IMG/VR virus record: IMGVR_UViG_3300008117_000011
Location: 1 to 64,000 of that record
Length of the DNA: 64,000 nt
Reading direction: 5' to 3' (one strand)
DNA from: a virus
In this document: positions 1,713 to 53,845 of the stretch, in pieces
Layout of the letters: each line of letters begins with the position of its first letter
How positions within the stretch are numbered: the first letter of the stretch is position 1
The notes under the pieces: generated by a model
What the model was told of the DNA's origin: nothing
What the model saw: the letters and a program-made list of their open reading frames with translations, nothing else
The model's database searches: none
Translations under genes and position numbers: made by a program

Positions 1713-3218
1713 TTATCTTGGGTCGGCTAAAGGTTTAATTGGGACTCTTTTTAAAAATTCAACAGTATAATTTGTTTGTGACTCCATCTCGCTAGGTTTC
1801 TTGCAGAACTGAACGTTGTCTTCTCTAACCCAACCATATTTATAACCTAAACCACCTTCGTGCATATCCTGTTGTAGGTTTAAAAATTCTACTTGATACC
1901 AAAGCATATTTTTGTATTTTTTTGGTAATTTTTTGTAAAGTTCATCTGTGTAGAAGTCAATTGCATTATTAATACCCATCCCAAGTATATAGTTTTTTTG
2001 TTTTTGATTTCCTGTTAATAGAACATCTTTTATTGTTTTTCCTTTAAACCCTGGTGCTGGTTCATTTGAAACCCCTTTAGTATCTAAATGAGATATTAAT
2101 TTATTTAGTTCTGTTTTTGATCCTATAATATTTTTAAAAAACTTTAAAAGTGTGTTATCATCACGTATTTGTCCGTTGTAAAAGGCCGAAACCGGTCTTT
2201 GTCTTTTTTGTGAGATATATTTTCCAACAACTTCATCACTTGACCAATTAATAAAATTATCAGTAGGGTCTAAAAGTCCTGTGTCATCATTTACCTCATT
2301 TGTTGTTCTTAAATTTACATAATTAACACCTTGTTTTAAACAGATATATTCACCACCAATAAATTCATTATTTTGTGAAACTGGTGATTGACTTATTAAC
2401 ATTTTTTCATCATTTGTTAGTGGTAAATGTGATGCCAAATCAAACCCACCAATTGCGGTTGAATCCATTGATAATTTTTTACTTTCAGTGTCCAAGTTTA
2501 AGTCTTCAATGTCAATTTTTTTAACTTTACCTTGATCAGTGTAACTGTAACTCATATCTGAACGAATAAGATATGGTGCTTGAGGTGTATAATTATTATC
2601 TGCTTGATATTTTTTATATTCCGTTAAAAACCAACTTGTATATGATAAATATATTTCATAAAAAGGATTTTGATTACCCGTATTCTCTAGAGCTTTTGAA
2701 AAGACCGAAAAACTCATAGTACACCCTTTTGGTTTGTTTTGGACGACAAGGTAAGAGTTATTCATACAATTGTAGACCAATTCTTCAAATGAGCTGTTTA
2801 TTTGGTCTTGAATTATTTTATCATTACTCAGTTTTGCGTAAATACCGGTTTTTTTTGATATTTGATCTTTGATTATTTGTACGTAATAATTACAAGCAGT
2901 TAATTCATTAGCTTTATTTTGTGCTAATAAATCTTGTTGCTGTTGAATGTATTCACTGGTTGATTTATTTTTATATGGAACAACACTAGCAAAATTTGGG
3001 GATACGTATTGTTTACCTGTTTTACAATCAATTATTGTTCTATCAGTTAGATTCTGATTACCTTCACTTGATGTTATTTTTGGTGATTGGTTTGATTGTT
3101 TTTTTGCGGTAATAGTTACTTCTGGTTGTGCACTAACCGGTTGTTCAGACAAAGTCTTTCTTGAGTCATATTTCATATTAAGAAGTATTCTTTTCAGTAT
3201 TTCATCAGAATTATTCAT
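1713..3218 (-). CDS. Unknown 501-aa virion-type protein with leader
   Basis: The N-terminus has a helical leader with RILLNMKYDSRKTLSEQ, giving a candidate cleavage after LSE at about residue 26. The next 30 residues are a low-complexity P/Q/S/K linker. The body is soluble-looking and rich in N, Y and K with no motif I can name. It overlaps the preceding 81-residue gene by 4 bp, indicating translational coupling. A structural or packaged role is inferred from the leader and the neighbours only. Confidence 0.85.
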   Translation of the reverse strand: MNNSDEILKRILLNMKYDSRKTLSEQPVSAQPEVTITAKKQSNQSPKITSSEGNQNLTDRTIIDCKTGKQYVSPNFASVVPYKNKSTSEYIQQQQDLLAQNKANELTACNYYVQIIKDQISKKTGIYAKLSNDKIIQDQINSSFEELVYNCMNNSYLVVQNKPKGCTMSFSVFSKALENTGNQNPFYEIYLSYTSWFLTEYKKYQADNNYTPQAPYLIRSDMSYSYTDQGKVKKIDIEDLNLDTESKKLSMDSTAIGGFDLASHLPLTNDEKMLISQSPVSQNNEFIGGEYICLKQGVNYVNLRTTNEVNDDTGLLDPTDNFINWSSDEVVGKYISQKRQRPVSAFYNGQIRDDNTLLKFFKNIIGSKTELNKLISHLDTKGVSNEPAPGFKGKTIKDVLLTGNQKQKNYILGMGINNAIDFYTDELYKKLPKKYKNMLWYQVEFLNLQQDMHEGGLGYKYGWVREDNVQFCKKPSEMESQTNYTVEFLKRVPIKPLADPR

Positions 3219-3460
3219 AATAAAGTATTTGCTTTACCTCGTGTAATTTTATTTAATGATTTCCAAGTTACCTTATCATCAATTGTATTCGCATTACTTC
3301 TAACAAGCCCTGTTTCCCATTTTGTAACAGCAGGATATGCACCTCCACCACCAGATGATGTTGCACCTCCTCCAGCGTCATCCTCCTCGCCCAATTCACC
3401 ATTGTTTGTTGGGTTAAATGTGTATTTCTCAAGAAGTCCTATTAATTGGTCTAACTCCAT
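3215..3460 (-). CDS. Small Gly-rich protein with TRGKAN motif
   Basis: This 81-residue protein starts with a short amphipathic helix, continues into an acidic then glycine/serine-rich linker (GGGATSSGGGGAY), and ends with a tryptophan segment and TRGKANTLL. A related half-motif, LVRSNANTI, occurs about 15 residues earlier, suggesting a repeated short unit. It is the first gene of a three-gene operon reading left. Function is unknown; a small virion linker or decoration protein is possible. Confidence 0.75.
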   Translation of the reverse strand: MELDQLIGLLEKYTFNPTNNGELGEEDDAGGGATSSGGGGAYPAVTKWETGLVRSNANTIDDKVTWKSLNKITRGKANTLL

Positions 3461-3475
3461 AAAAATTTTTCTTTT

Positions 3476-3483
3476 ATAAATAT
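3476..3483 (-). promoter_or_regulatory. RTATTTAT motif (putative late promoter)
   Basis: ATATTTAT on the minus strand, 15 bp before the ATG at 3460, heading the 3460-to-left-edge operon. It lies back to back with the TAnnTTTG promoter of the plus-strand lipoprotein gene. Confidence 0.5.
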
Positions 3484-3504
3484 TTGTAAATAGAAAAAAA
3501 ATAG

Positions 3505-3512
3505 TATCTTTG
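3505..3512 (+). promoter_or_regulatory. Bacteroidota -7 element TATCTTTG
   Basis: TATCTTTG matches TAnnTTTG and lies 29 bp upstream of the lipoprotein ATG at 3542. This is the known -7 consensus for the primary sigma factor of Bacteroidota. Confidence 0.65.
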
Positions 3513-3541
3513 TGATATAGATAATATTTAAATAATAAGAT

Positions 3542-4045: not shown

Positions 4046-4062
4046 TAAACGGGCCTTTTTTA
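4037..4062 (+). terminator. Intrinsic terminator
   Basis: GGTCCGT pairs with ACGGGCC (one G-U) around a 5-base loop and is followed by a T run. It overlaps the stop codon of the lipoprotein gene. Confidence 0.75.
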
Positions 4063-4365: not shown

Positions 4366-4367
4366 TT

Positions 4368-4937: not shown

Positions 4938-4941
4938 ATTA

Positions 4942-5361: not shown

Positions 5362-5979
5362 ATGAAGATAATACTTACAGAATCACAATATAAAAATTTA
5401 ATACTTGAAAACTTAGGTAGGGAAACAATTAATAAATTAAAATCTCTTCAGGAATTCTTTGATAACGTATCTTCTGAAAGTAAAAAACAAATAGGATTAG
5501 ACTTAGGATTTCTTGCGACCTGGGGTGTTACAATTGCTGGTTTTGTCAGACCGATTAGTGAATTTATGAAAGGTGAATTTCCGGAACTAACATCAACGGA
5601 AATAATTCTTTTGTCAACTGGTGTAATTTTAACTTACTTTACAACAAACAAGGATAAACTAAGAAAAGTTCTTGATTTAATAAAAGAAAAGAATCTTATT
5701 TTTGAGTTTGACATAGTTCTTGAAAAGGCGGATAAGTTAAAAAACGTATTTTTTGCTTTTATTGATAGTCTTGCAATCCCTATAAGTAAGATATCAAATA
5801 TGCTTGCTTATACATTCATTATTCCGATAATTCCTGAACTATATGAAATGGCTCAAGGAAATGAATCAATGGATGTATCTGAAATGGTTGGTAGAGTTCT
5901 TGGTTTTGTTGGTATCACATATGGTGGAAATTTAACAAAAAGACTTCTTAATGAAATTGTAAGAAGATTTAAATCTTAA
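5362..5979 (+). CDS. Membrane protein with class B leader
   Basis: The 205-residue protein opens with MKIILTESQYKNLILEN, where LTE-S is the candidate cleavage point. Four hydrophobic segments follow at about residues 48-68, 80-98, 125-160 and 170-190, separated by charged helices. If packaged, it could insert into the host membrane at infection. It converges on the 5976 gene with a 4 bp overlap. The family is unknown. Confidence 0.85.
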   Translation: MKIILTESQYKNLILENLGRETINKLKSLQEFFDNVSSESKKQIGLDLGFLATWGVTIAGFVRPISEFMKGEFPELTSTEIILLSTGVILTYFTTNKDKLRKVLDLIKEKNLIFEFDIVLEKADKLKNVFFAFIDSLAIPISKISNMLAYTFIIPIIPELYEMAQGNESMDVSEMVGRVLGFVGITYGGNLTKRLLNEIVRRFKS

Positions 5980-7105: not shown

Positions 7106-7894
7106 TTAACCAAGAGTTTCAGTACATAACATTGTTATTTGTTCTGGCGTTAAAGATTCACCCATTTTCAATTGATTAAGAGCGTCTTGCGTTTTACAAC
7201 CCCAATAACCATCATCTTTAATACCAAGTGTTGGTAATTTTTTAGCTAAACATCTTTGTACTTCTTTTATTTTTTCACATTTATCACACTTGTGGTAATG
7301 TTGTGATTGTGAACAATCTTTGTATGCTGGACAAGCAGGAATTCCACTAGGGCATTTTTTAGTTGGGCTTACTTGTGATCCTTTACATTTATAACCATCC
7401 TCACCTAGTTTAGCCCAAGCTTTACTTCCAGGTCTATCGGTATCAGGCTTTAATTTTGTTCCACAACAAAACATTGATTTCATTTTTCCTATAAAATCAA
7501 CCGGGTCTGTATATATATACTCATATCTGTCAACCCAATTACCGCTATCGTCCTTCAATTTTCCAATTACTTTATTAGAATCACATTTTATTGTTAATAA
7601 CTCCCGATAAGCATAACCTCGTTGTAAATTATTCCAAAATGTTATCGCATTAAATCTTTCATCTCCCCAAACGACCGTTCCAAGTTTTAATTCAGCTGTT
7701 ACACCTTTACCACCTCCTTGTCCAATTTCTTGACCTCTAAAAGTAACATCGCCTTGAGTTATGTATTGACCTTTTTCGTTAAGAATATCCTTTTCTTTAC
7801 TATATTGCTCAAGAATTGGCTTTAAAGATAAGTTTTTGTGCATATCTAATATTCTTCTTTTTTCTTCTTCTGAAATTAAAATTCTTTTGTTCAT
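7106..7894 (-). CDS. Cys-rich protein with class D leader and C-terminal PG-binding-like end
   Basis: The leader is MNKRILISEEEKRRILDMHK (ISE-E). The middle has FCCGTK, and residues 165-205 are cysteine-rich (CPSGIPACPAYKDC, CDKCEK), probably metal-binding. The last 45 residues (IKDDGYWGCKTQDALNQL) resemble the DG-G-T-AL pattern of peptidoglycan-binding domains. The end (CTETLG) matches the ends of the genes at 13004 and 16888, so the three are related. A role in cell-wall contact is tentative. Confidence 0.8.
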   Translation of the reverse strand: MNKRILISEEEKRRILDMHKNLSLKPILEQYSKEKDILNEKGQYITQGDVTFRGQEIGQGGGKGVTAELKLGTVVWGDERFNAITFWNNLQRGYAYRELLTIKCDSNKVIGKLKDDSGNWVDRYEYIYTDPVDFIGKMKSMFCCGTKLKPDTDRPGSKAWAKLGEDGYKCKGSQVSPTKKCPSGIPACPAYKDCSQSQHYHKCDKCEKIKEVQRCLAKKLPTLGIKDDGYWGCKTQDALNQLKMGESLTPEQITMLCTETLG

Positions 7895-7938: not shown

Positions 7939-8859
7939 TTAAGTTTGATTTTTACTAGAGCAAAAATCACCATTTTGTACATAATAAGACCCAATGTCTG
8001 CAAGATTAAAAACATATGAAGGTATTTTCATTAATTCTTGGTATTTAGGATTGTTAATTACCCATTCTGGAACATTTATACAACCGGATGATAAATTTGA
8101 TGATTTATTTATACTTTCATCATCTAAATCAAAAATTGTTCTATCTTTTGCCTTAATTAATGCGTCTTTTCTTTCTGGATCATTTAATACTTTATGAATT
8201 GCTTGTGACAATAACTTACCATCTAATGTTTTTAAATATGTGTAGGGAACACTTAAATTACTTGTTGTATATATACCAGGATTTAAAGAGGCTCCACCAC
8301 TAAATTCAAAAACCTCTTTATCGGAAACATCACTAACTTTTTTATTTTTATATTTTGCAATATAAGCCCTTCTTTCTTCAAAATTTAAAAGATTAAATTT
8401 TTTAAATTCGTCTGATGTTGCTTGTTTTTCTCTACCGGTAATAATTGGAATTGGGGATTTTTTTTGTAAATCTTCATATGGCGTCACATCGTTTAATTCT
8501 TTATCAAAAAAATAAATTGTATGTCGCATAGAGTTTATAATTATTATATTTTTATCTCTAAATCTTGGTCTTATTGCAATGAGTCCCATTTCGCAAGCCG
8601 TATAAGTTTCAACCCCATCTGAAATTAATTTTGTTGCAAATAACTGAATATCATTATTTATTCCTGAAAAAACAACATTTAAATCATCAGTATTTAACTT
8701 TGTTTTGTACTTTGCAATAATTTCATCGTAATCAACAACATTAGTTTTTGATGATTCGTCAAATTTAAGACAAGAGTTTTCGGTCTGTTCAGTTACAATA
8801 CCATATAAATTTTTTATGTGGTTTTTTTCACTTTCTGTTATGACAAATCTTTTACTCAT
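7939..8859 (-). CDS. L,D-transpeptidase-like (YkuD-type) protein with leader
   Basis: The leader MSKRFVITESEKNHIKNLYG contains ITE-S. The C-terminal half has PGIYTTS, an IHK histidine and SSGCINVPEW, resembling the H...SxGC[IV]R active site of L,D-transpeptidases, although the Arg after the Cys motif is replaced (INV). These enzymes cross-link peptidoglycan peptides in the periplasm. A packaged member could repair or rework the wall at the entry site. The fold assignment is from motifs only; it starts the operon continuing into 8860 with no gap. Confidence 0.6.
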   Translation of the reverse strand: MSKRFVITESEKNHIKNLYGIVTEQTENSCLKFDESSKTNVVDYDEIIAKYKTKLNTDDLNVVFSGINNDIQLFATKLISDGVETYTACEMGLIAIRPRFRDKNIIIINSMRHTIYFFDKELNDVTPYEDLQKKSPIPIITGREKQATSDEFKKFNLLNFEERRAYIAKYKNKKVSDVSDKEVFEFSGGASLNPGIYTTSNLSVPYTYLKTLDGKLLSQAIHKVLNDPERKDALIKAKDRTIFDLDDESINKSSNLSSGCINVPEWVINNPKYQELMKIPSYVFNLADIGSYYVQNGDFCSSKNQT

Positions 8860-10101: not shown

Positions 10102-10713
10102 TTACCAACTTCTTGATGACTTTAAGCCAAGTTTTTTTCTATATCTTGAGACATTACAACTCCAGTATCCGGCAGTTGTTCTATCTTTCTTTTGGTCACA
10201 TTTATGTCTTGCTCTAAAAGACTTTGCTCTTGCTTTACTTGCGTTTCTTACTCTCAAATTAGGATCTCCAAAAGTAACTTTTTTTACATTACCACCCGGG
10301 GTTTTAACATATACCGCAAATTTCTTTGGTCCTCCTGGGGTTCTAAATGGACTATTTAATTTAACATTTTTTCCACGATGTTTTACTTCAGTTAAAGTTT
10401 CCTCAATTTCAAATGGAGCGTCAAGATAAACAACTCTCCCATCATCAAGAGTTATAGATTTACCCAAATCACTTTCAATAATCCATTTATCATCTTTATT
10501 TAATTCAATCAGACCAAATTCATAAAGATTTCTAACTTCATTAATTAAATCAAAAAAAGATTCGGAATAAACTCTAAAAACGTTTTCCGAAAGTGTAATT
10601 TTATTGTCTAAATGATATTTTAAATTATCTGATATTTCAACCGATTCTTTTAATACCATTTTAGAATCCAATTCCTCAGAAAGTATTTTCTTTATATTAT
10701 TTTCTAAATTCAT
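10102..10713 (-). CDS. Head-region protein with FGDPNLRVR/KSFRARH motif and class C leader
   Basis: The leader is MNLENNIKKILSEE (LSE-E). The C-terminal 90 residues contain PGGPKKFAVYVKTPGGNVKK, FGDPNLRVRN and KSFRARHKC...YWSC, a pattern I recall from head or prohead-associated proteins of diverse large phages. The two cysteines may bind metal. The likely role is in or near capsid assembly, at moderate confidence. It is the first gene of the leftward operon. Confidence 0.75.
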   Translation of the reverse strand: MNLENNIKKILSEELDSKMVLKESVEISDNLKYHLDNKITLSENVFRVYSESFFDLINEVRNLYEFGLIELNKDDKWIIESDLGKSITLDDGRVVYLDAPFEIEETLTEVKHRGKNVKLNSPFRTPGGPKKFAVYVKTPGGNVKKVTFGDPNLRVRNASKARAKSFRARHKCDQKKDRTTAGYWSCNVSRYRKKLGLKSSRSW

Positions 10714-10790: not shown

Positions 10791-11327
10791 ATGAAAAGAA
10801 TTAGATTATCAGAAAATGATCTTGTCAAGGTGATAAAGAAGGTTCTTAGCGAAAACGAGCAGCCAGAATCAAATAAAGGTAAAAAAGAACCACCAAAACC
10901 TAGATGTATTCCGGAAAACATAATCCCACTTGATGAAATTGTTGGTCAAGCCGATGAATATGTTAAATATTCCCCTGGAATCACAAAAAGAAGAATGGGT
11001 GTTAACTCAATGGTTGATACGTTAGGAATCTTAAACAACATTAGATTATTTAAAGATGTAAAAGATGGTGGATCTCATCTTGCTTATGATATAATGCATA
11101 ACTTAAATCGTTTTAGAAATAAAAACTACTACGATGAAACAAGTGGTGAATGTCATAAAGCTATGGATAAAATCATTGAACTTTACAAAGAAAACGAACA
11201 CGGAACAGAACTTGTTAAAGATATTGAAAGGATTTTGAATCTACAGACTAAGGATGACGAATACACTCCATCCCCAAGAGCTAAAGAGTATTTAAAACAA
11301 TGCGTTAACCTAGTTAAAGGACAATAA
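10791..11327 (+). CDS. Unknown protein with class A leader
   Basis: The N-terminus MKRIRLSENDLVKVIKKVLSE carries the class A pattern, with LSE at positions 6-8 and again at 19-21. A charged P/K linker follows, then an all-helical body with two cysteines. No named domain. It is followed by a hairpin terminator. Confidence 0.8.
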   Translation: MKRIRLSENDLVKVIKKVLSENEQPESNKGKKEPPKPRCIPENIIPLDEIVGQADEYVKYSPGITKRRMGVNSMVDTLGILNNIRLFKDVKDGGSHLAYDIMHNLNRFRNKNYYDETSGECHKAMDKIIELYKENEHGTELVKDIERILNLQTKDDEYTPSPRAKEYLKQCVNLVKGQ

Positions 11328-13003: not shown

Positions 13004-13723
13004 TTATCCTAATGTTTGCATACAAGGAGACCCATCTTTACGGGTAGCACCTAACTTTAATTTTTCAATAGCGCTAGCGTACTTTGTAGAGTCAAGTTTA
13101 ATCCATTTTATACCTTTATCTTTAGATGCGTACCAATTATTATTTTTAAAGGCGTAAGTCCATTCTTTATCACCACTTAGCGTACAATGTTGGTTAGCTG
13201 GTATGACAATTTGGTTATCAACCACTGGTCTTTTCTTTAATTTTGTTCCGTCGCAAAATAAAGTCAAAATTGTTTTAACAAATCCTTCTGGTGACCCAAG
13301 AGCTACTAGTTTTTTATTGTTATGATACATTATTGTTCCTTTACCACCACTTTGCATTCCTGTAACATCACCACAAGTCATTGAAAATTTTCCGTCTAAC
13401 TTTTGTGTTAAAGTTTCATTTCCGCGAGTATAATCAATATGACCATCAAACATTATATGTTTGTCATCTGCAGCTGGTGATAAAATAGTACCGGTTGGGA
13501 TTTTAATTTTAATACCTTTCATATCACCAGTTAATGTTACTGGTTTGCCTTCAATTGTTGCTTTTTGTGTGAAATCATCAGCATCAGTACCAGCCAAGCT
13601 TAATGTTTGTGTATTTTTTAAAGTGTAAGTTCCGTCGGAATTTAACTTATAAGTCTGTTCTTCTATAACTCTTCTTACAATTCTTGTAAGATCTGTTTCT
13701 GTAAGTGTAATTATTCTTTTCAT
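13004..13723 (-). CDS. Class A leader protein, GATRxDGSPC C-terminal family
   Basis: The leader ITLTETDLTRIVRRVIEEQ ends with IEE-Q. The body is beta-rich with an FCDGTK motif, and the last 34 residues (WIKLDSTKYASAIEKL, LGATRKDGSPC) are nearly the same as the end of the 16888 protein. The two share the FC-GT-K core with 7106. This suggests a duplicated packaged protein with a conserved C-terminal domain of unknown function, possibly disulfide-stabilised. Confidence 0.8.
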   Translation of the reverse strand: MKRIITLTETDLTRIVRRVIEEQTYKLNSDGTYTLKNTQTLSLAGTDADDFTQKATIEGKPVTLTGDMKGIKIKIPTGTILSPAADDKHIMFDGHIDYTRGNETLTQKLDGKFSMTCGDVTGMQSGGKGTIMYHNNKKLVALGSPEGFVKTILTLFCDGTKLKKRPVVDNQIVIPANQHCTLSGDKEWTYAFKNNNWYASKDKGIKWIKLDSTKYASAIEKLKLGATRKDGSPCMQTLG

Positions 13724-13761: not shown

Positions 13762-14319
13762 TTACATATTTTTAGTTAAGTTCTTTGTTTCTTCATATAT
13801 TATTTGAGGATATGTTTCTTTAACCCAAGTTGTAAGGTCCTGGAATGTTTTAAAATTCATTGGTGTATCAATATAACTTTTAAAATCTATATTATAGTTT
13901 TTAACATCTTCTGTTTTATTATTATGTACGTATTTATCGCTAATTTCAATTGGTAACATTTCATCTCCTTCAAGAAAAGGTGTTGCATAACCATAATACG
14001 AAATCATTTCTTTGTCAGTAAAAACGTTTATCTCAATAGTTACGTAATAATTTCTATCACTACCAAAAACAATTTCAACGTTATCAAACATAAAATTAAC
14101 TTCAGTTAATTTATAACGAATTAAAAGAATAATAATATCACTAATTTTATCTACATCTAAATCAAAAACCTCTAAATCAACATCTTTTAGAATTTTATTA
14201 ATTCCAGTTAAGTTTAGATTAAATTTTTTCATAGTCTTAATAACCCCAATTTGATTAACTGAACTTATTATCATTTTTTGTGTTCTATTTATTTGTGATT
14301 CAGATAATATAACTTTCAT
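13762..14319 (-). CDS. Class B leader protein, GYATPY family
   Basis: The leader MKVILSESQINRTQKMI has LSE-S. Next comes a helical segment (IGVIKTMKKFNLNLTGINKIL) like that of other family members, then a beta-rich body with YYGYATPFLEGDEMLPIE. The GYATP-x-(6)-LPIE motif recurs in 36537 (GYATPYWEGNCYLPID) and, more loosely, in 33613. The three are paralogs of unknown function. Confidence 0.8.
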   Translation of the reverse strand: MKVILSESQINRTQKMIISSVNQIGVIKTMKKFNLNLTGINKILKDVDLEVFDLDVDKISDIIILLIRYKLTEVNFMFDNVEIVFGSDRNYYVTIEINVFTDKEMISYYGYATPFLEGDEMLPIEISDKYVHNNKTEDVKNYNIDFKSYIDTPMNFKTFQDLTTWVKETYPQIIYEETKNLTKNM

Positions 14320-44140: not shown

Positions 44141-44464
44141 ATGATTGATTATAAAACGGAAAAACTACTTTTAAAATTTTTAAATCATAGTAGTGGTGGA
44201 AATATTGTGAGTATTCTTGGTTACACCCAAAAGCTTGAGTCTAGTGTATTAAACCTAGATGTATTTGAATTCCAAACAGCAAAAACATTTGTACCAAAAG
44301 TTGATAAAGTATTACAAATTAGATGTAATTGTAGGGATAATTTACATTTTAATGGAATGAATAATCTTTCACAAAGAACCTATCTAACTTTTAAAGATGT
44401 CTTAAAGGATTTTAGTAAAATAGAAATAGAATATAACTACTCTATGTATTGTTGTCGTGATTAA
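44141..44464 (+). CDS. Unknown 107-aa protein
   Basis: Starts MIDYKTEKLLLKFLNHSSGG; a TTG two codons earlier lies in the promoter. It has Cys residues CNC and CC and a beta-rich look. It converges on 44461 with a 4 bp overlap. Function unknown. Confidence 0.65.
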   Translation: MIDYKTEKLLLKFLNHSSGGNIVSILGYTQKLESSVLNLDVFEFQTAKTFVPKVDKVLQIRCNCRDNLHFNGMNNLSQRTYLTFKDVLKDFSKIEIEYNYSMYCCRD

Positions 44465-44658
44465 GCTTTAAGATACTCCTTCCAGAACTTTAATAGTTCT
44501 TTATCGTTATATCTTTGTTCATCACTATCCCAACCACACATATGACAAAGGTTTGGGTGTTTGTCATCCTTTTCTTTTTTCCAGGAATGACCACACTTAC
44601 AACTTATTTTTTCTTCAAATAGTAATCTACTTTGTCTTTCTGTTATTATTATTTTCAT
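44461..44658 (-). CDS. Class B leader plus zinc ribbon
   Basis: The leader MKIIITERQSRLLFEE is joined to a zinc ribbon (CKCGHSWKKEKDDKHPNLCHMCGWD) and a short helix. At 65 residues it is one of the smallest cargo candidates. The same ribbon style recurs in large-phage proteins as far as I recall. Role unknown. Confidence 0.8.
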   Translation of the reverse strand: MKIIITERQSRLLFEEKISCKCGHSWKKEKDDKHPNLCHMCGWDSDEQRYNDKELLKFWKEYLKA

Positions 44659-45048
44659 TTACCAATTTCTATTTGTATTTGTATTCCATTCCTCGTGTGA
44701 GTTAATTATTAAATCCATTTTGTACTTTTGAAATACTCTGTAATTTATAACGTGTCTTAAACTTTCATAGTCTCTACTTTCAAAAATACTATAATAGTAT
44801 ATGTCAACCCAGACTCTAAACCTTGGGTAATTTTTACCTTGAAGGTTTGGTGTTGTTTCAACCTTTTCAATTTCAACTACTTTAATTTTTTCTAGACTCT
44901 CAACAAGGTCGCAATCATACCAGCTAAACCAATCACCATCCCCACCATCATTAAGTTTTTCACATTCGTTTTTCAATTCCTTTATGGTTTCCTGAATTGC
45001 ACGATTGATAAAATTATCTTGCTGTGATTCTGTTATTATAAATTTCAT
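44659..45048 (-). CDS. Class B leader protein, CD-motif body
   Basis: MKFIITESQQDNFINRA is followed by an alpha/beta body (WYDCDLVESLEKIKVVEIEKV, YPRFRVWVDIYYY) laid out like that of 36037. It overlaps 45045 by 4 bp. Function unknown. Confidence 0.8.
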   Translation of the reverse strand: MKFIITESQQDNFINRAIQETIKELKNECEKLNDGGDGDWFSWYDCDLVESLEKIKVVEIEKVETTPNLQGKNYPRFRVWVDIYYYSIFESRDYESLRHVINYRVFQKYKMDLIINSHEEWNTNTNRNW

Positions 45049-45917
45049 TTAAACTTAATTTCTTCTGGTTTAATTGGCCCTGACTTAAATATAACTTTAT
45101 CATATGTAAATCCTTTTTTTGATTTGATTCCGGTTGTTATTTTCAAATCAGAATCATTTTCAAATATGTAATAAATACCTTTTGTTTTGTTTACAAAAAT
45201 TAAATAATCAACATCGTCTAAATTATATCCAGAAGCTGGATACTTTTGTGTTAAAACATCAAAAGATGTCTTGTTACCATTTAAAAACAAAAGTTGTTTA
45301 ACCTGAAATGTTGCTTTTGTATCTCCTTTTGTTAATATAAAATCAACACCTTGTTTTGCATCACTTTTAGATCCTGGACAAAAATTAATATTACCGGGTA
45401 ATTTAAGTGCGTTGATTAAAGTATCAAATACCGATTTTTCTGATTCAAAACCAAATCTGATTTTTTTTAAATTTTCAATTGCAAGGTTTTCAATCTTATC
45501 TGTATGTAGATTGTTCTTTATGTATTCTTTTACGTATTCAATAAAATTATCAACTGTTTCATCAACTGTTGTTTCAGCTCTAAATGATTTTAAAAGAGAA
45601 TCAAGTACTACACCACTTGTTATAAAGAAATTTATAACAGACCAGTTTGAGTTTGGGACATTCATTTTTTGACTATAATCAGTAAATGTATGTACACCAA
45701 TAACTCCATTAAGTGTATAACAATCAATTGCCGGATTATCAGCGGTTCCCCAATTTCCAAGTGGTATAAAAATTTCCTTAAGTACTCCTAAGAACTTGGA
45801 TTTAAAATCTTTGTTATTTTTTAATGAATCTGAAGTTAATACATTTCTAATTAACTCTTCTTCTTTTATAATTCCCATCAATTTTTTTATTCTACTATTT
45901 TCAACTATACTAGTCAT
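45045..45917 (-). CDS. PD-(D/E)XK-like nuclease with leader
   Basis: The start at 45917 (MTSIVENSRIKKLMGIIKEEE) gives a leader with IKE-E. Residues 150-210 carry a restriction-endonuclease-like pattern: GFESEKSVFDTLI, then PGSKSDAKQGVDFILT and ATFQVKQLLFL, that is E ... D ... QxK. Packaged nucleases can attack host DNA. The fold call is by motif and could be a non-catalytic relative. Confidence 0.65.
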   Translation of the reverse strand: MTSIVENSRIKKLMGIIKEEELIRNVLTSDSLKNNKDFKSKFLGVLKEIFIPLGNWGTADNPAIDCYTLNGVIGVHTFTDYSQKMNVPNSNWSVINFFITSGVVLDSLLKSFRAETTVDETVDNFIEYVKEYIKNNLHTDKIENLAIENLKKIRFGFESEKSVFDTLINALKLPGNINFCPGSKSDAKQGVDFILTKGDTKATFQVKQLLFLNGNKTSFDVLTQKYPASGYNLDDVDYLIFVNKTKGIYYIFENDSDLKITTGIKSKKGFTYDKVIFKSGPIKPEEIKFK

Positions 45918-46611
45918 ATTTTTCCATATATTTACTATCAATTATGATTGTCTTTGCTTTTTTAGTTACAAGATTTATTTGATCAAGAACAATTCTGTTG
46001 TTACCATCTCTATTTAAAACTAAAGTCCCAGAACCACCCGGTTCGTTATGAATATTTAAATCAATAACTTCCTTTGCCACATTTAATACCCAATTATGAA
46101 ATGATGTTTCACCAAAAAACATTTCATAATATGATCTAACATTCATAATAGATTTGTTTGTTGATGTACTAACCTCATCTACTATAAAATCACCATACCC
46201 ATAAGTAAAATCAATAAGTAATGTATCATAACTTTTTATATAATTAAATAATCGTTCAGATGTGTTATCCGTGTATTGAAATTCTGTTGTCTTTTCTTTA
46301 TTTTCTCGTGCGTCATATTTTGCAACTAAAATTATTTGTCTTTTTTGTGGGTCTATTGTCACATCACACCACCAGGTATTATCCCAATATTCTACTTCCT
46401 CGGTAAACATTTCACTTCCGTGATCTTCTACTAATTTTATTATAAAATCTTCAAAGTAATCTAAAATAGGAACTTTAAATCCTTTTTCAGACCAAAATGC
46501 TGATGGAACATATTCAATTCTTTCAGAATACATATCAATATTAACCCCAATAGGTCCAATTGGATTAAGATATGCCATAAGTGCTTTAAATGTATTTTTA
46601 TAATTCATCAT
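45910..46611 (-). CDS. Tandem paralog array, member 1
   Basis: The N-terminus NTFKALMAYLNPIG is a variant of the shared KxLKxxxAYFRGF start. The body has a WWCDVTIDPQKRQI strand, a DFTYGYGDF motif, and ends with a strand-rich tail. Last of six genes chained by 1-14 bp overlaps. Function unknown. Confidence 0.8.
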   Translation of the reverse strand: MMNYKNTFKALMAYLNPIGPIGVNIDMYSERIEYVPSAFWSEKGFKVPILDYFEDFIIKLVEDHGSEMFTEEVEYWDNTWWCDVTIDPQKRQIILVAKYDARENKEKTTEFQYTDNTSERLFNYIKSYDTLLIDFTYGYGDFIVDEVSTSTNKSIMNVRSYYEMFFGETSFHNWVLNVAKEVIDLNIHNEPGGSGTLVLNRDGNNRIVLDQINLVTKKAKTIIIDSKYMEKYD

Positions 46612-47308
46612 TAAAATTATCTAGTGTTATTTGAATATTCATATCTGTAGGTTGATATTCTTCTTCAAATTCATATCCATCAATTAATACTTTACCATTT
46701 GCGTAAACAATAATTCTACCTTTAAAACCATTTTCACCATTCCAATAAAGATTTACATTACGTTTCATAATATCGTTTACAATGACCCAGTATCTATCTT
46801 CATCTTCACTATCAATTCTTGCGTCTATATCGTTTACATAAGCTTCAAATACTTCACCGTCATCCCATCTTCCATAAAAATGTAATTCAAGTTTTTTAAT
46901 AATATCATCTTCAAATATGTCATAAATAATTTCTTTTGTTCTTGTAGTAATATCATCAAGATTTACCATTTCCTTTTTTTTAATTGATATTTCTTGCTTA
47001 CACTCACTTGTAAAAACAATTCTATTTTCAAAAGGATATATTAAAGCGTATAAATACCAAAGTTCACTATATTCATAATCGTTATATTTTCTAAATTCTG
47101 GTGTAATTTTATTTAGTATTTCACTAAAAATTGAGATAATTGTGTCCGGAGGAGTTACAAGTGATTTTTGTCCGTCACTTTTTCTAAAGTAAAAATGCTT
47201 GTTCCAGTCTGGTTCAATTGTGTTTACATCAAATGGAATATCTGTGTCTACAGTTTTTACTTTTAGACCTTTAAAATACGAAAAAAACATTTTTAATTTA
47301 TTCTTCAT
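46598..47308 (-). CDS. Tandem paralog array, member 2
   Basis: MKNKLKMFFSYFKGLK start; then NDYEYSELWYLYALIYPFENRIVFTSECK, which matches NDYNEDDWWSLEVSIYPFENEIHFTSECK in member 5; then a KLELHFYGRWDDGEVFE strand. Function unknown. Confidence 0.83.
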   Translation of the reverse strand: MKNKLKMFFSYFKGLKVKTVDTDIPFDVNTIEPDWNKHFYFRKSDGQKSLVTPPDTIISIFSEILNKITPEFRKYNDYEYSELWYLYALIYPFENRIVFTSECKQEISIKKKEMVNLDDITTRTKEIIYDIFEDDIIKKLELHFYGRWDDGEVFEAYVNDIDARIDSEDEDRYWVIVNDIMKRNVNLYWNGENGFKGRIIVYANGKVLIDGYEFEEEYQPTDMNIQITLDNFNDEL

Positions 47309-47993
47309 CTTCTTGTTTTAAATTATCTAGTGTAACTACAATGTCTAAACTTTCGGTAACATCATCATTTGTATTCCATTCGTGCATAACTTCAATATGG
47401 TTTCTTGTAACTTCAATTGTTCCTTGGGATCCTTCATTTATCTCCCAACCACCAAAATCTTCAAGTAACTGATAACAAATATTTTCAATTTCTCTAGTTA
47501 TTGTTCCAGATTTTTTTCTTGAAGAATAACTATCGTGAACTTGTCCACTATCGCCACCACCATCGTAAGTTATTTCAAGTGAATCAATTCCTTCTTTATC
47601 TAAAAATTTATCAAATTCTTCAAAATACTGAGAAACACTTTCACCATCTTCATCCCTATCATAATATATTCCAGAATCTTCTGTTCCATACTGAGTAAAA
47701 TCTGTACTTTCAAAAACTAATCTATCTGGATATATTGTCCCATCAACAGTAAAGTAATCACTTCCATCACCATAACTTCCAAGCCCACCATCATATAAAT
47801 CTTCAGCGTACAATTCAGCGATATCATAAAATATTTGCTCCATATTTGATGACATCTGAAATCCTGGGTTTTTTGCACAAGTAAAATCTATATAATCAAT
47901 TGAATCTCCATCATTATAAAATTGTATTGTAAAATCAATGTTACAATTTAGACCTCTAACATACCCTAAAAGGGCTTTAAATTTTTTATTCAT
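47298..47993 (-). CDS. Tandem paralog array, member 3
   Basis: MNKKFKALLGYVRGLN start; SLEITYDGGGDSGQVHD and FGGWEINEGSQGTIEV match member 6 (QFSGYGDSGEIHE, FGGWEIDDGSRGEFEI). Acidic overall. Function unknown. Confidence 0.83.
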   Translation of the reverse strand: MNKKFKALLGYVRGLNCNIDFTIQFYNDGDSIDYIDFTCAKNPGFQMSSNMEQIFYDIAELYAEDLYDGGLGSYGDGSDYFTVDGTIYPDRLVFESTDFTQYGTEDSGIYYDRDEDGESVSQYFEEFDKFLDKEGIDSLEITYDGGGDSGQVHDSYSSRKKSGTITREIENICYQLLEDFGGWEINEGSQGTIEVTRNHIEVMHEWNTNDDVTESLDIVVTLDNLKQEDEE

Positions 47994-48681
47994 AATCTTC
48001 TATATTATTTGGTGTTAATTCTATTCTCATATTACTCGGAAGTAATCTTTCTTGATGGTGTTTGTAGCTTACTTCTATTTTATTCTTTTCTATTCTCACG
48101 CTACCACTAACTCCGTCAATTCCCCATTCAATAGATTGATCTACAACATCCATAATGTTTTGAGCTATATCATAATATTTCTCTTCAATATTTGAGTCTA
48201 ATTCATAAATGTTTTTTTCATCACCATTTATATTCAAATTTGTAACTTCACCTTCATCTACACCCATCCAAAAATCAATTTCAATAAAATTATTATCGTC
48301 TTTTATATGTTTTTCTAATTCAACAATAGCCCAATCCTGCAATCTTTTTAAATATGTTTTTTTTTCTTTTTTTTCTGTAAATTTTTGATAGTCTTTGGCG
48401 GTAACAATTATTTGATTATCAAATGGTCTAATAGTAATACTTAAAATCCAATAATCAGAATACTCCCTTGAAACATTGTCTAAAATTTCTCTTTTTAATT
48501 TTCTACTAAAAAGTGATTTTATTGCATTGTTAATTGTTAAATTCGTATTCGTTTCTTTACCATCAATCATACAAAGTCCGTCATCATTAAATTCCCAATC
48601 AACCATATCAAATTCTATATCGGCTCGTGGTTTATTAAAACCCCTAAAATAGGCTAATATCATTTTTAATTTATTTTTCAT
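47986..48681 (-). CDS. Tandem paralog array, member 4
   Basis: The start MKNKLKMILAYFRGF at 48681 is preferred over two upstream Met codons that lie in the tail of member 5. The body contains YWILSITIRPFDNQIIVTAK and EIDFWMGVDEGEVTNL. Function unknown. Confidence 0.82.
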   Translation of the reverse strand: MKNKLKMILAYFRGFNKPRADIEFDMVDWEFNDDGLCMIDGKETNTNLTINNAIKSLFSRKLKREILDNVSREYSDYWILSITIRPFDNQIIVTAKDYQKFTEKKEKKTYLKRLQDWAIVELEKHIKDDNNFIEIDFWMGVDEGEVTNLNINGDEKNIYELDSNIEEKYYDIAQNIMDVVDQSIEWGIDGVSGSVRIEKNKIEVSYKHHQERLLPSNMRIELTPNNIEDYE

Positions 48682-49366
48682 CCGTATCATCAAAAAAATC
48701 TGGCGTTATTGTAATGTCCATATCTGTATTGCCCCATTCAACAAGTCTGTTCTCAAGGTCAAGGAAAATATCATCACCCCATATTGTGATATCTCCAGTA
48801 AAACCACCATCATCGGTCCAGTATTTTCCATAATTTTTTGACATTAACTCGTATGTTACATCGTGAAATAACATATCAAGTTCATTTGTTGTTTTAATAA
48901 ACTTGTCATCAAAAAGAATATTAAAAATTTCAACATCCCAAATACCTCTAAAATCAAACTGAATTTTTGTTAAATTATTTTCTTCTTCAATTTCGGTTAT
49001 CTTATCCTGGAATTCTTCAGATAAATCAGAAAACTCCATTTGTAGTTGTTCTGGAACTGAATTTGCGTATTTGCACTCACTTGTAAAATGTATCTCATTT
49101 TCAAATGGATAAATACTAACTTCTAATGACCACCAATCATCTTCGTTATAATCATTATAATGATGAAATGTTGGCATAAGTTTTTTAATAACCTCTTCTA
49201 TAATATCACGAATTGGTTTTGCCGGTTCTATAAACTTTCTAGTACCACCTAAAGATATATCACTAAACTCTTCAATTGTGTTATAACCAAAAGTTACGTT
49301 GAAAAACAACTCCTCTTGTTTAAACCCTCTAAAATATGCAAAAAGTGCTTTTAATTTATTTTTCAT
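48671..49366 (-). CDS. Tandem paralog array, member 5
   Basis: MKNKLKALFAYFRGFK start; WWSLEVSIYPFENEIHFTSECK; FDFRGIWDVEIFNI; ending DITITPDFFDDTDEK. The C-terminal IT(L/P)DNxxD pattern is shared across the array. Function unknown. Confidence 0.83.
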   Translation of the reverse strand: MKNKLKALFAYFRGFKQEELFFNVTFGYNTIEEFSDISLGGTRKFIEPAKPIRDIIEEVIKKLMPTFHHYNDYNEDDWWSLEVSIYPFENEIHFTSECKYANSVPEQLQMEFSDLSEEFQDKITEIEEENNLTKIQFDFRGIWDVEIFNILFDDKFIKTTNELDMLFHDVTYELMSKNYGKYWTDDGGFTGDITIWGDDIFLDLENRLVEWGNTDMDITITPDFFDDTDEK

Positions 49367-50031
49367 TCGTTTAACATATCTTCGGTTATTTCAATTGGGT
49401 CCTGACAATCGTTCCAGACTCTCTGCTGCCAAGTTTGTTCTATTGTAATCATTTTTGTTGTTCCATAATACTCAGCAATTTCAAACTCACCTCTGGATCC
49501 GTCATCTATTTCCCATCCTCCAAATGCGGCTTCTAATCTGTCATAAAGATAATTTAATAGTTTTTCATATTCACCACCCCATCTTACAATTTCGGTTTGA
49601 CCATTAATTTCAATATCCTCGTGTATTTCACCGGAATCACCATAACCACTAAATTGTCCTTTTACAGATTCAATACCTTTTTCTTTAAGAAATTCTAAAA
49701 CTTCTTCATCTCTTATGTCATCAGAATATGTGTCAGGTTGTTCGTCAAAATTTTCACATCTAACACTATAAAACATTTTATTTTCAGATGGTTTTAAATC
49801 TAAAGTAATACTTTTATATTCTGTTTCACTATAAAGTTGTTCTATATCATATTCTTCAGCTAAAAATATTGCAATACCAGTTATTATATCTCTAATATTT
49901 CCTGGTACTGACATATTACTACTAAAGCTGTACCAGTCAACTTCTCCATCATAATATGCAAAAGAAAATGATATATTATCTTTCTTTAATGACTTAAAAA
50001 AAGACATTAGAACTTTAAATTTTTTTTTCAT
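49363..50031 (-). CDS. Tandem paralog array, member 6 (first in operon)
   Basis: MKKKFKVLMSFFKSLK start behind an RTATTTAT motif; body with QFSGYGDSGEIHE and FGGWEIDDGSRGEFEI. It lacks the ExS-type leader, but the conserved basic amphipathic N-terminus could act as a different targeting tag. Function unknown. Confidence 0.83.
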   Translation of the reverse strand: MKKKFKVLMSFFKSLKKDNISFSFAYYDGEVDWYSFSSNMSVPGNIRDIITGIAIFLAEEYDIEQLYSETEYKSITLDLKPSENKMFYSVRCENFDEQPDTYSDDIRDEEVLEFLKEKGIESVKGQFSGYGDSGEIHEDIEINGQTEIVRWGGEYEKLLNYLYDRLEAAFGGWEIDDGSRGEFEIAEYYGTTKMITIEQTWQQRVWNDCQDPIEITEDMLNE

Positions 50032-50399: not shown

Positions 50400-50445
50400 A
50401 ATGTGTCTTTTTGATAAGTATAACTTTAATAATCATATTTTTGAA

Positions 50446-50453: not shown

Positions 50454-50458
50454 TAGGT

Positions 50459-51079
50459 ATGAAAGATTTGATTCGTCAGGTTTTAAGGGAAACTATACAA
50501 AGTAAGTACAGAAGATTAAGTCCAGAACTTAATACTGTAATTATGAAAAAAATTACTTCTTTATTTAAAAATTTCAAAGTTGACTATAAAGACCCAAAAA
50601 AAACTTATGGAAATATTGATGTAGAATTTTGTTTAAATGGTAAAAAGGTTGTCAATTTTATTGGTGGTGATGAACCAGGGTGGGATGATTATGATACACC
50701 AGAAGGAACAAAAATTGACCCATATGGTCGTGTTACGTTTGATAAAAAGATTGTAAATCAATTAACTTCAACATTTAATATCAGAAAATCATTGGCCTTA
50801 CATCTTTTAACAGAATTTTTTGAGGATAATTATCTAAATACAATATCACAAAAATATGGAATTCAATTTAACGATTTAGATGATGGTCAAGAGTACGATT
50901 ATAAAAATGGTTTATGTCAATCTGAAATGGTAAAAAGTGTTCCAAATTATAATAGAGAACAAATGCTTGACTATATAGAATCAAGTGGAAGAGGAAGGAG
51001 ATATTGGGAAGAAATGGATGATGAGGAATTACAGAATTCTTTTGAGCAAATCTGGGTTATAATAAATTTTCGTGAGTAA
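50459..51079 (+). CDS. Class C-like leader protein
   Basis: The start at 50459 gives MKDLIRQVLRETIQSK, a leader of the LIRxxLRE form. The body is beta-rich then helical (VEFCLNGKKVVNFIGGDEPGWDDYD). It is chained to the next two genes by 1 bp overlaps. Function unknown. Confidence 0.8.
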   Translation: MKDLIRQVLRETIQSKYRRLSPELNTVIMKKITSLFKNFKVDYKDPKKTYGNIDVEFCLNGKKVVNFIGGDEPGWDDYDTPEGTKIDPYGRVTFDKKIVNQLTSTFNIRKSLALHLLTEFFEDNYLNTISQKYGIQFNDLDDGQEYDYKNGLCQSEMVKSVPNYNREQMLDYIESSGRGRRYWEEMDDEELQNSFEQIWVIINFRE

Positions 51080-52062
51080 TGAAAAAATTAATTAGACATA
51101 TATTACAAGAGGAAACCTCAATGTTTTTACCAGATAGATTTATTTACAATTCTATGATGGAAAGTAATGACGATATCATTAAGGCTTACCCTAAAAAGAA
51201 AAAACTAGCAATAAAATTTTTAGAGTCTTTTAAACTTGAGCACTGGGAAAATAAAAGATATCAAATGGAATACCTTGCGACACCAAAAGGTACTATTATT
51301 TTTATGTTAACGGATGCTGAGTTGTCTATTCAATCTGAAATTTATGATGTTTTAACACGGATTATGGATAATCCGGAATCTCTAACCTATTTCATAAATG
51401 ATTATGTTAGAAATAGAGGACTTTCTTTAGATTATATCTATGTAACTAGATCCGGTGGTATTGGTGAAATTGAGGATGATGATGACCGGGTAATTCAAAA
51501 CATTCAAGAATCAACTAGTAAAAACCCACTCAAACAATATTTTTTTAAAATCTGGGACAAAGAAAAAAAAGAAGGTAAAATTCCAATGATTGGTAATTTA
51601 GAAAGACTTGGTCTTATTGAAAAGCAAAATGAGATTATTCAATACTTTGCTGAGTATATGGGTTGGGACACAAACAGTAAATTGGAAGCAATTAAAATGT
51701 ATCTTTTAAACCAAACATTCACAGAAGATTATATTACTGGTATGAAAGATATCCCAGAAGGAAAAATAACAATTAAATTTACAGATATTCAAGTTGGTGA
51801 AAAGCCTAGTACAGATACGTATTTTGATGAAAGTTACATTGCTGGCGAATTTGTTGTTTTAGATGGTTCATTTTTAGAACCTGAAGTTGGTGAAACATTA
51901 CACTTTTCAAGTGGTGATATACCAATGTCTGATTTTCTTGAATACCACGATTTTAAAGATGCTGTTAGTGAGATTGTAGAAGGTTTTGTTGATAATATTT
52001 TAAAAACATTTGGTTATAAAAAGGGTGCCGTTAGTTATCCTTACGTTGATTTTAACTGGTAA
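51079..52062 (+). CDS. Two-module leader protein
   Basis: The leader is MKKLIRHILQEETS. Residues 1-145 form one module; around residue 150 VIQNIQESTSK looks like a second, diverged leader. The second half (YFFKIWDKEKKEGKIPMIG ... VLDGSFLEPEVG) aligns with the whole of 52062. Function unknown. Confidence 0.8.
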   Translation: MKKLIRHILQEETSMFLPDRFIYNSMMESNDDIIKAYPKKKKLAIKFLESFKLEHWENKRYQMEYLATPKGTIIFMLTDAELSIQSEIYDVLTRIMDNPESLTYFINDYVRNRGLSLDYIYVTRSGGIGEIEDDDDRVIQNIQESTSKNPLKQYFFKIWDKEKKEGKIPMIGNLERLGLIEKQNEIIQYFAEYMGWDTNSKLEAIKMYLLNQTFTEDYITGMKDIPEGKITIKFTDIQVGEKPSTDTYFDESYIAGEFVVLDGSFLEPEVGETLHFSSGDIPMSDFLEYHDFKDAVSEIVEGFVDNILKTFGYKKGAVSYPYVDFNW

Positions 52063-52619
52063 TGAAAGAGTTAATTAGAAATATATTAAGAGAAGATAAC
52101 AAAACTGAAATGGTGTTAAACTATTTTAGGAAGTTGTGGCAAAAGGATGTTGACTCTGGTAATGTTCCTACAATACCACATATTGATATTAAAAGAAAAA
52201 AATTAGATTCGTTCTATGATGATATAAAAGTTGCATATTTTGATTTTGTTGGTGGAAAAGAAAAAGCTTTTGAGTACTTTGAAAAATCAATTGAAAATAA
52301 AGTATTAACTGATAGGGACTTATCTAAGGTGCTTGATTTTCGTGGTCCGGATACTTTTACTTTTGAACTTTATGGTGTAACATCTGTTGATTACAAAGAT
52401 GGTGAAGTTGATGAAATTGAGTTTGTTTTTGATGTGTTAGATGGTAACTTTGAAACTGATGGTGGCGTTTTTGTTACCTGGTCTGAATTAATGCCTGAAG
52501 AAATGGATGATTTATACCACGATGTGTCAAATTGGATTAGGGGATTAATTGAGGACTACGTTGACACAATGGCGGAAAGTTATGGTTTTAAATTTGCATC
52601 ATATGGTTCCTGGGGATAA
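52062..52619 (+). CDS. Class C-like leader protein, paralog of 51079 C-half
   Basis: MKELIRNILREDNK leads into YFRKLWQKDVDSGNVPTIP and, near the end, FDVLDGNFETDGGVFVTWSELMP. The arrangement suggests that 51079 arose by fusion with a copy of this gene. Function unknown. Confidence 0.8.
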   Translation: MKELIRNILREDNKTEMVLNYFRKLWQKDVDSGNVPTIPHIDIKRKKLDSFYDDIKVAYFDFVGGKEKAFEYFEKSIENKVLTDRDLSKVLDFRGPDTFTFELYGVTSVDYKDGEVDEIEFVFDVLDGNFETDGGVFVTWSELMPEEMDDLYHDVSNWIRGLIEDYVDTMAESYGFKFASYGSWG

Positions 52620-52623
52620 AAAC

Positions 52624-52654
52624 AGAAAAGTCGGATTTCTCCGACTTTCTTTTA
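52624..52654. terminator. Intrinsic terminator
   Basis: AAAGTCGGA pairs perfectly with TCCGACTTT around TTTC, followed by a T run, between convergent genes. Confidence 0.8.
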
Positions 52655-52903
52655 TTTAATCCCGTATACTGTGGCTTTTTCCCCCAAAAGGAATTTTGCC
52701 ATATCAACTGCCTGATCTTTTGTCTTATAACCTTTCTCAACCAATTTTTTTGAGTGGTAGATGTTATAAACAGTTGATGCTACGTCCGGTTTAGCATACT
52801 TAAACTTACTTTCTTTTTTAGGTTTAAAACTGTCTTTAGCATAGACATCGTAAAAACCAACTTTGCAAATGTACCTTCCTCTTACTCCAGATTTTGTTGC
52901 CAT
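52652..52903 (-). CDS. Unknown 83-aa basic protein
   Basis: MATKSGVRGRYICKVGFYDVYAK start, then K/Y-rich segments and KTKDQAVDMAKFLLGEKATVYGIK. It has a host-type promoter and no leader. Function unknown. Confidence 0.7.
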   Translation of the reverse strand: MATKSGVRGRYICKVGFYDVYAKDSFKPKKESKFKYAKPDVASTVYNIYHSKKLVEKGYKTKDQAVDMAKFLLGEKATVYGIK

Positions 52904-52936
52904 CTTTTTTTTAGATATTTAATGATTAATAATAAA

Positions 52937-52944
52937 CAAATGTA
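52937..52944 (-). promoter_or_regulatory. Bacteroidota -7-like element TACATTTG
   Basis: TACATTTG on the minus strand, 33 bp before the ATG at 52903. Confidence 0.5.
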
Positions 52945-52955
52945 ATTCTTTTTTT

Positions 52956-53321
52956 TTAATTTTTCAAAACATTATTAAGAAATTTTCTAATTGTTTTGAT
53001 TATTTTCTGTTTTTTTGGGTGTTGATCCGGTAATTCAAAAAAATCATCACCAATCAAATCTGTTTCTTCAACAAGTAATGATAAAATATTATTCATCATT
53101 TCTTTTTTAGTTCTATAACTATTAAAACCATAACCTGGAAAACCTTCAAATGTATATTCAATTACCTTTAAAGGTTCTTCTTCCGTTTCAAAGTTAGACC
53201 AATTAAGTTTTTTTTCTTCAACTTTAATTCTTCTCATTAAAAAAAGTAAAATGTCAGAATCAAACTCCTCGTGTTTTGAGGAAATTTGATTCTTTTCATT
53301 TTCATTAATTATGATTTTCAT
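52956..53321 (-). CDS. Leader protein, RRI-type helix
   Basis: The N-terminus MKIIINENEKNQISSKHEEF is a class B/D hybrid (INE-N). It continues ILLFLMRRIKVEEKK, echoing the RR families, and ends in a basic helix. It overlaps 53318 by 4 bp. Function unknown. Confidence 0.75.
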   Translation of the reverse strand: MKIIINENEKNQISSKHEEFDSDILLFLMRRIKVEEKKLNWSNFETEEEPLKVIEYTFEGFPGYGFNSYRTKKEMMNNILSLLVEETDLIGDDFFELPDQHPKKQKIIKTIRKFLNNVLKN

Positions 53322-53845
53322 TTAAGAAATTTCAATTTATAAAGTGTTGAATTAACTAGTTCTTGAACTGTGTCAATCTGGTTTTGGATAAAACTATCGT
53401 CTACTGAATCTCTATTTTCTTCAATTATATCAAGTAGTCTTTCAAAATAAGAAATTGTCTTTTTACCATTCTTGTATTGCTCAATTTTGAATGACTTAAA
53501 GTTTTTCATTATACCATACTTTCCTTGGTAAGATTCAACTATCGCATCAAACAAAGGAACAACGGCATCATAATAACCATTAAGAGCAATATGTTCGGCG
53601 TATGATTTTGTTTGTAGGTGAAATACGTGAGCCTGATTTCTTGAGTGTAGTATATTACACATCATATCACAAAAGTCATCGTTTGAATCTGAATCATCTT
53701 CTACCTCATCAGTGTCGTCATCATCATCTTCGTCCTCTTCCTCGTCTTCCATTTCATCCTCAAGTTCGTCTTCATCTTCATCTTCCTCAAAGATATTTCT
53801 TTTTTTTAATTCTTCAAAAAGTTTATCACTTAGATTTTTTTCCAT
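53318..53845 (-). CDS. Protein with long poly-acidic segment
   Basis: Residues 18-55 are almost all D and E, followed by a helical, histidine-containing body (MMCNILHSRNQAHVFHLQTK, HIALNGYYDAVVPLFDAIVESY). The acidic part could mimic DNA or act as a scaffold-like region. No leader is visible. Function unknown. Confidence 0.75.
   Translation of the reverse strand: MEKNLSDKLFEELKKRNIFEEDEDEDELEDEMEDEEEDEDDDDDTDEVEDDSDSNDDFCDMMCNILHSRNQAHVFHLQTKSYAEHIALNGYYDAVVPLFDAIVESYQGKYGIMKNFKSFKIEQYKNGKKTISYFERLLDIIEENRDSVDDSFIQNQIDTVQELVNSTLYKLKFLK

Follow-up and report, generated by a model that had tools for sequence, protein, structure and literature searches.

Short N-terminal leaders of five classes as probable capsid-targeting propeptides in a T4-superfamily phage

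About 40 proteins encoded in the window, the first 64 kb (64,000 nucleotides) of the 223,671-base IMG/VR virus record IMGVR_UViG_3300008117_000011, begin with a leader of 13–28 residues belonging to one of a few classes. We consider it probable (roughly 0.8) that these leaders are capsid-targeting propeptides, a greatly enlarged and sequence-distinct counterpart of the capsid-targeting and internal-protein system of phage T4. In T4, the internal proteins (IPs) IPI–III and Alt carry a capsid-targeting sequence (CTS) and are processed by gp21 (PMC9026906, PMC3012670; for the internal proteins, Repoila et al. 1994, as cited in PMC12373910), which cleaves after L/I-x-E; for IPIII, ten N-terminal residues are enough for packaging, and Asp at position 10 prevents processing while leaving targeting intact (PMC9026906). 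We place the phage studied here among the myoviruses of the T4 superfamily: the sheath, tube, baseplate wedge and hub of a contractile tail of T4 type are encoded in its record, together with a ribonucleotide reductase and a UvsW-like helicase. Its host is probably a member of the Bacteroidota, judged from the rarity of Shine-Dalgarno sequences in the record and from the type of its relatives.

Leader classes and their boundary

A regular-expression census, in which five class patterns were applied to gene N-termini and the expectation was taken from N-terminal shuffles, found leaders in 44 of the 272 genes of the record (4.4 expected) and in 48 of the 337 genes of G021, a 296-kb relative (5.0 expected). 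Within the record they are concentrated in the window, where 37 of 100 genes carry one versus 7 of the 172 genes outside it (Fisher P = 2e-12), and within the window they cluster at 5–53 kb (37 of 77 genes). An initial annotation of this DNA had listed four leader types, and the named type is present at every gene listed, with two qualifications: the leader of 35666 (window genes are named by their first coordinate) is read from a GTG start, and 20113 carries a leader that matches the LISEEEKRRIL type only loosely (LSSDEKNRIL). The four types stood, but the list was incomplete, as a fifth class, MNLQENISRIKEMMGLLxE, was found. The span first given, 3215–53845, does contain the leaders, but the genes at its two ends (3215 and 53318) have none. 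None of four leader strings occurs in the literature searched, which is not proof of novelty.

The boundary of the leader was clearest in class A. IMG/VR and 84,980 bacterial and archaeal genomes were searched with a degenerate DNA pattern encoding LTE(S)DLxRIVKRVI, giving at least 120 stretches in the former and no match in the latter; tblastn of one class A leader against cultured phages also gave no match, 24 amino acids being too short a query for such a search. Among 112 open reading frames (ORFs) of at least 60 amino acids from the IMG/VR stretches listed, which represent many phages, Glu stands two residues past RVI in all 112, at a position outside the search pattern, so that the leader ends in I-x-E. 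Information falls from 3.8 bits at this Glu to 1.6 at the next residue (Q, N, S, E or D) and to about 0.2–0.5 beyond, and the bodies that follow fall into 79 clusters, of which 62 have a single member. In class C (MNLQESIRRILREE) the end is L-x-E in 87 of 88 cases (an arrow hereafter marks the leader boundary), [YF]LxE↓Q is a frequent end of class D (FLITEEEKSRILGMH...), and class E (MNLQENISRIKEMMG), with 26 distinct leaders in the relatives and the window (36037 and 39122 in the latter), usually ends in MMG(L/V)(I/L)xE. Class B (MKIIITESQ) is the loosest: Glu is the commonest residue nine past T, and the L/I-x-E end is met only partly. The hydrophobic-x-E-(S/E/N/Q) core described initially is present as the first part of the leader, but the cleavage-like feature is the terminal (I/L)-x-E. 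The five classes, class B only in part, share an (I/L)-x-E end, which is the published T4 gp21 cleavage motif.

Synonymous codons differ at invariant leader residues (Arg AGA/CGA/CGT, Leu TTA/CTA/CTT), indicating that selection acts on the protein and not on the DNA. This variation speaks against leader codons being a DNA or RNA element (a translation enhancer, a promoter-linked cassette or a recombination site) spread by recent duplication, an idea to which the position of leaders at gene 5′ ends and a host type probably lacking Shine-Dalgarno signals would lend themselves. Upstream of the leader genes there is no conserved motif beyond an A-rich context, and full-strength leaders also occur inside ORFs. 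We regard such an element as very improbable, and a cassette acting at the DNA level was rejected on the codon variation and the absent upstream motif.

Exchange of leaders and the cargo bodies

The bodies of 39 leader proteins of the window span 32 families; contrary to the initial description, not all of them are unrelated, and related ones often stand behind different leader classes. Bodies that are 73% identical follow different leaders in 39122 (class E) and L324 (class A type), and those of 13004 (class A) and 16888 (class D) are 46% identical. The same holds for 23777 (class B) and L227 (class C-like, MKSLIRKVLKE↓S; 49% identity), 35666 (class C) and L278 (class B; 33%), and 14326 (class B) and L198 (class A type; 27%), and bodies of relatives that are 72–79% identical to that of 10102 carry other N-termini. 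Full leaders are also internal to ORFs, giving the order leader-body-leader-body in 29731, 32709, G021 97421 and G002 27458, the last with an internal class A leader at residue 338. A small Cys module, CWxGYxxKGMK, follows leaders of four classes (A, B, C and E).

Pfam recognised no domain in most of the cargo bodies. The product of 17573 is an extracytoplasmic function (ECF)-type sigma factor (Sigma70_r4_2 1.8e-15, Sigma70_r2 1.3e-12), whose 40% identical homologue in the record G036 has a class B leader too; no leader is present on a larger sigma factor that occurs in 13 records. An HD domain (4.1e-7) was detected in 39122, and 41587 combines a weakly matching DHH-like domain with a Cys module that also occurs in proteins of cyanophage head clusters. 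One of these, SSM2_108, encoded between gp16 and gp17, begins with a T4-like leader, MKTLKQFLKE, and non-structural proteins are known in cyanophage virions (PMC10665884). AlphaFold2 modelled 35177 with a predicted local distance difference test (pLDDT) score of 88, the leader forming a helix of lower confidence (62–70) apart from the well-folded body, and 34142 with a pLDDT of 86; a fold search with these two modelled families gave no PDB match.

Most cargo proteins have a single body, 29731, 32709, 39709 and 41587 being multi-module ORFs, and delivery to the host is a prediction. Comparable in this respect are the polyvalent proteins of phages and plasmids (PMC5512222), accessory proteins that combine several unrelated domains in one polypeptide and for which entry into the host together with the DNA is predicted; they are known by their domains and not by a shared leader, whereas the proteins described here are mostly small and single-bodied, with fusions of two or three bodies (29731, 41587).

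Head genes of relatives and the proposed route of the cargo

Relatives of the phage encode a head block that matches the leader boundary. The 91-kb IMG/VR contig G002 encodes Portal_T4, Peptidase_S77 (L092:3804–4532; 8.3e-22), Gp23 and a T4-type terminase, Pfam scores for the head proteins of relatives being 4.7e-77 for Portal_T4 and 3.4e-73 for Gp23. Peptidase_S77 is present in all 11 tested relatives that bear a major capsid protein (MCP) and in 21 of the 30 leader-bearing records, including all seven over 200 kb; the nine records lacking it also lack Gp23, so the head region is probably missing from them. Freshwater bS21-encoding Bacteroidetes phages (PMC9723584), which are large as well, have a similar cluster of TerL, portal, prohead protease and MCP; a passage search of that paper gave no leader proteins.

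An invariant MCP pro-segment, ENQAS(F/H/Y/Q)LINE↓A, is found in the relatives, and a core protein encoded between portal and protease has MKFGLLKSKIEKYLVE↓SY in 24 variants, that is LxE↓S in the same layout as the leaders. Their scaffold protein ends in FLRMKDLM, which resembles class E leaders; a similar C-terminal box was found in five proteins of the record, versus 0.06 expected, and one of the five, 221464, is probably a chance match. Taken with the (I/L)-x-E ends, the S77 protease of relatives and the matching LINE↓A capsid site support the capsid-targeting signal proposed in the initial annotation.

Several features are shared with the T4 CTS: a short N-terminal leader on unrelated bodies, an (I/L)-x-E end, an S77 protease (here encoded by relatives, the record itself having none), accessory and variable cargo loci, and recombination between leader and body. 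T4 has four leader proteins of one class, and the IPs reported for the T-even phages together number at least 10, whereas here there are about 40 in one phage and five classes; this comparison supports a number and variety of leaders well beyond T4. The leaders also differ in that P1′ is rarely Ala, in their internal copies within polyproteins and in having a sigma factor among the cargo. No homology to T4 MKTYQEFIAE was recognisable, and since the leaders share only their layout with T4 ipI–ipIII, the analysis supports a system that would work like the T4 CTS, not homology to it. In phiKZ and SPN3US, many head proteins, including ejection proteins, carry propeptides that a gp21-related protease removes by cleavage after x-x-E (PMC5694885, PMC10052503), but these are mostly long (more than 100 residues) and protein-specific rather than short and shared, and the phiKZ motif is S/A-x-E instead of I/L-x-E.

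In the mechanism that we propose, the leader, as a short strand-like segment and/or an amphipathic helix, would dock the cargo on core or shell during formation of the prohead core, and an S77 (gp21-type) prohead protease would cut past the terminal (I/L)-x-E, with loss of the leader. The mature cargo would be retained in the head and enter the next host along with the DNA. Docking, cleavage, packaging and injection are steps that we infer. Any leader class would function with any body, so that new cargo could arrive by recombination. More tentatively, and with rather less than even confidence, the heads may be pre-loaded with dozens of interchangeable effectors and protease-cut cargo polyproteins, and a virion-delivered ECF sigma factor may steer the RNA polymerase of the host towards phage promoters at injection. 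The few such proteins known in T4 are injected anti-restriction factors (PMC12373910), so a locus for some 40 proteins would be a rich supply of host-takeover and counter-defence proteins. The rule of a five-class leader ending in (I/L)xE would give orphan genes of abundant environmental phages a testable role as packaged, injected cargo, and the leaders could be used to tag proteins for packaging where new phage chassis are to deliver them.

A short amphipathic peptide common to many proteins would suit any docking tag, including one for a non-capsid structure (a replication compartment, host chaperone, degradation machinery or membrane) in which IxE is part of the tag, and the AlphaFold2 model shows only that leader and body are separate. 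Such a tag, which we consider unlikely, leaves unexplained why conservation ends exactly at the gp21 motif in five classes, why the core protein encoded between portal and protease is laid out in the same way, why class E matches the scaffold C-terminus and why leaders co-occur with S77-bearing phages. Still less likely is that the leader proteins are not delivered but serve as structural parts in the core, decoration or inner body of an elaborate head and bear an ordinary head-protein propeptide. Giant phages such as SPN3US do have about 50 head proteins, many of them processed (PMC5694885), and the leader-like layout of the core protein would fit as well; however, the cargo varies strongly from one close relative to the next, and an HD-domain protein and an ECF sigma factor are part of it, neither property being that of an essential structure. 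The packaging step would be identical to that of capsid-targeting propeptides, and only the fate of the protein would differ.

Other observations weigh against capsid-targeting propeptides. A second (I/L)xE is not evident in several class B leaders (23777, 24255), and Glu is followed mostly by Q, N, S, E or D in the leaders, whereas A follows it in the capsid protein and, in many cases, in T4. No leader is visible in the L125 homologue of 15735 or in the G045 homologue of the sigma factor, and packaging and cleavage of the leader proteins are inferred, not seen in virions. Class B leaders look strikingly like the MCP pro-segment LYENQASFLINE by eye, but this likeness was dropped because its profile score of about 0.05 was not significant. 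Finally, a search of the whole record detected no S77 prohead protease, and no Gp23 MCP either. G002 shows synteny with the right end of the record and has its head block further along in the same direction, and we attribute the absence of both genes to the record ending before that block, S77 being expected about 20 kb beyond it. The initial annotation had held that a genome lacking a prohead protease would argue against packaging; in this record the capsid gene is missing as well, and the MCP-bearing relatives all have the protease. It had also proposed a search of the rest of the genome for further cargo and a gp21-like protease; the part of the record outside the window has seven genes with a leader and no such protease.

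In G036, a 268,739-base IMG/VR record, both S77 and Gp23 occur twice, with the copies about 200 kb apart; this record is perhaps a chimera or carries a duplicated head block.

Leader genes of the window and other observations

Genes of the window lie on the minus strand unless marked (+). Class A leaders begin 10791–11327 (+; MKRIRLSENDLVKVIKKVLSE↓N), 13004–13723 (body related to 16888), 15735–16025 (MKKQIRLTESELINLIEKIVKE↓N), 19706–20068 (MKKVIRLTESDLVRIVKRVISE↓Q), 21964–22377 (MKNIINLSESDINRIVKKVLSE↓E) and 23266–23646 (MKKVIRLTESDLTRIVKRVIKE↓N). Class D is represented by 7106–7894 (MNKRILISEEEKRRILDMH...), 16888–17550 (MSYKRILIEEKEKQEILSKYY...), the class D-like 7939–8859 (MSKRFVITESEKNHIKNLYGIVTE↓Q) and the loose 20113–20550 (MKHILNDLSSDEKNRILEQY), which the census pattern missed.

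Class B leaders occur at 5362–5979 (+; MKIILTESQYKNLILE↓N), 13762–14319 (MKVILSESQ), 14326–14868 (MGKKIIISESQLERLAKLIAE↓A), 15508–15729 (MKNYIITEGQLKYILSE↓N), the sigma factor gene 17573–18151 (MKIIITESQYSRIVDIKE), 19302–19652 (MKIIISESQ) and 20913–21239 (MKYIITESK, from an internal ATG of a longer ORF). The paralogues 23777–24151 and 24255–24620 both begin with MKIIITESQ and are followed by 24640–24834 (MKIILTERQYKNILE↓M). The body of 36537–37115 (+; MKYIITESQ) is related to those of 13762 and of 33613–34155 (+), which has a weak class B leader, MDCIVTENK. The remaining members are 44461–44658 (MKIIITERQ with a Cys-rich module), 44659–45048 (MKFIITESQ) and the class B-like 52956–53321 (MKIIINENEK).

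Class C leaders begin 10102–10713 (MNLENNIKKILSE↓E), 29259–29729 (MNIHESIRRILRE↓E), 32374–32709 (MNQQENIRRVLKE↓E), 34142–34657 (MNLQENIRRILKE↓E; body modelled), 34654–34983 (MNLQETIRKILKE↓E), 35177–35515 (MNLKESIKRILKE↓E; AlphaFold2 model) and 35666–36040 (MNLRESIRKVLRE↓E; GTG start), and on the opposite strand 50459–51079 (+; MKDLIRQVLRE↓T), 51079–52062 (+; MKKLIRHILQE↓E) and 52062–52619 (+; MKELIRNILRE↓D). The polyprotein ORFs 29731–30414 and 32709–33572 each have a class C leader followed by an internal second leader (NLQESIRKVLREE, class C, and GLKESIRRILNE↓S, respectively), and in the polyprotein ORF 39709–40647 an internal class C leader, YSLKEHISKILKE↓E, precedes a family-G body. Class E leaders begin 36037–36498 (MKLNEELSRIKGLMN) and the HD-domain protein 39122–39712 (MNLRENIETIKNMMNIISE↓E), which also has a C-terminal class E box; another such box, NEHIKRIKNIM, ends 30419–31522 and resembles the scaffold C-terminus. 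The 835-amino-acid multidomain protein of 41587–44094, with the DHH-like domain and the Cys module, has leader-like segments at its N-terminus and near residue 725.

The Cys-rich basic modules SIDCxNPKGFSQxAHC, CWxGYxxKGMK, YxVxPSAY and CGxxW...CHxCG are found both in leader proteins and in multi-module proteins of cyanophage head clusters (L350, L354, L288 and L342; cyanophage L402–L405). At 45910–50031 (minus strand) of the window, six adjacent genes for proteins of 222–236 amino acids resemble one another at the N-terminus, MKNKLKALFAYFRGFK...; they look like paralogues arrayed in tandem, and none has a leader of the classes above. Three adjacent genes at L003:4210–6733 (record 106210–108733) share the start NVLSLFDGLSCGQIALNR and look like tandem cytosine-5 DNA methyltransferases, of which G021 likewise has three. 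At L007:2809–4890 (record 180809–182890), Pfam detects an entire Fe/Mn superoxide dismutase (3.6e-39 and 1.2e-21) within a 693-amino-acid phage protein, and the relatives G001–G003 encode proteins of similar size and N-terminus at the equivalent place.

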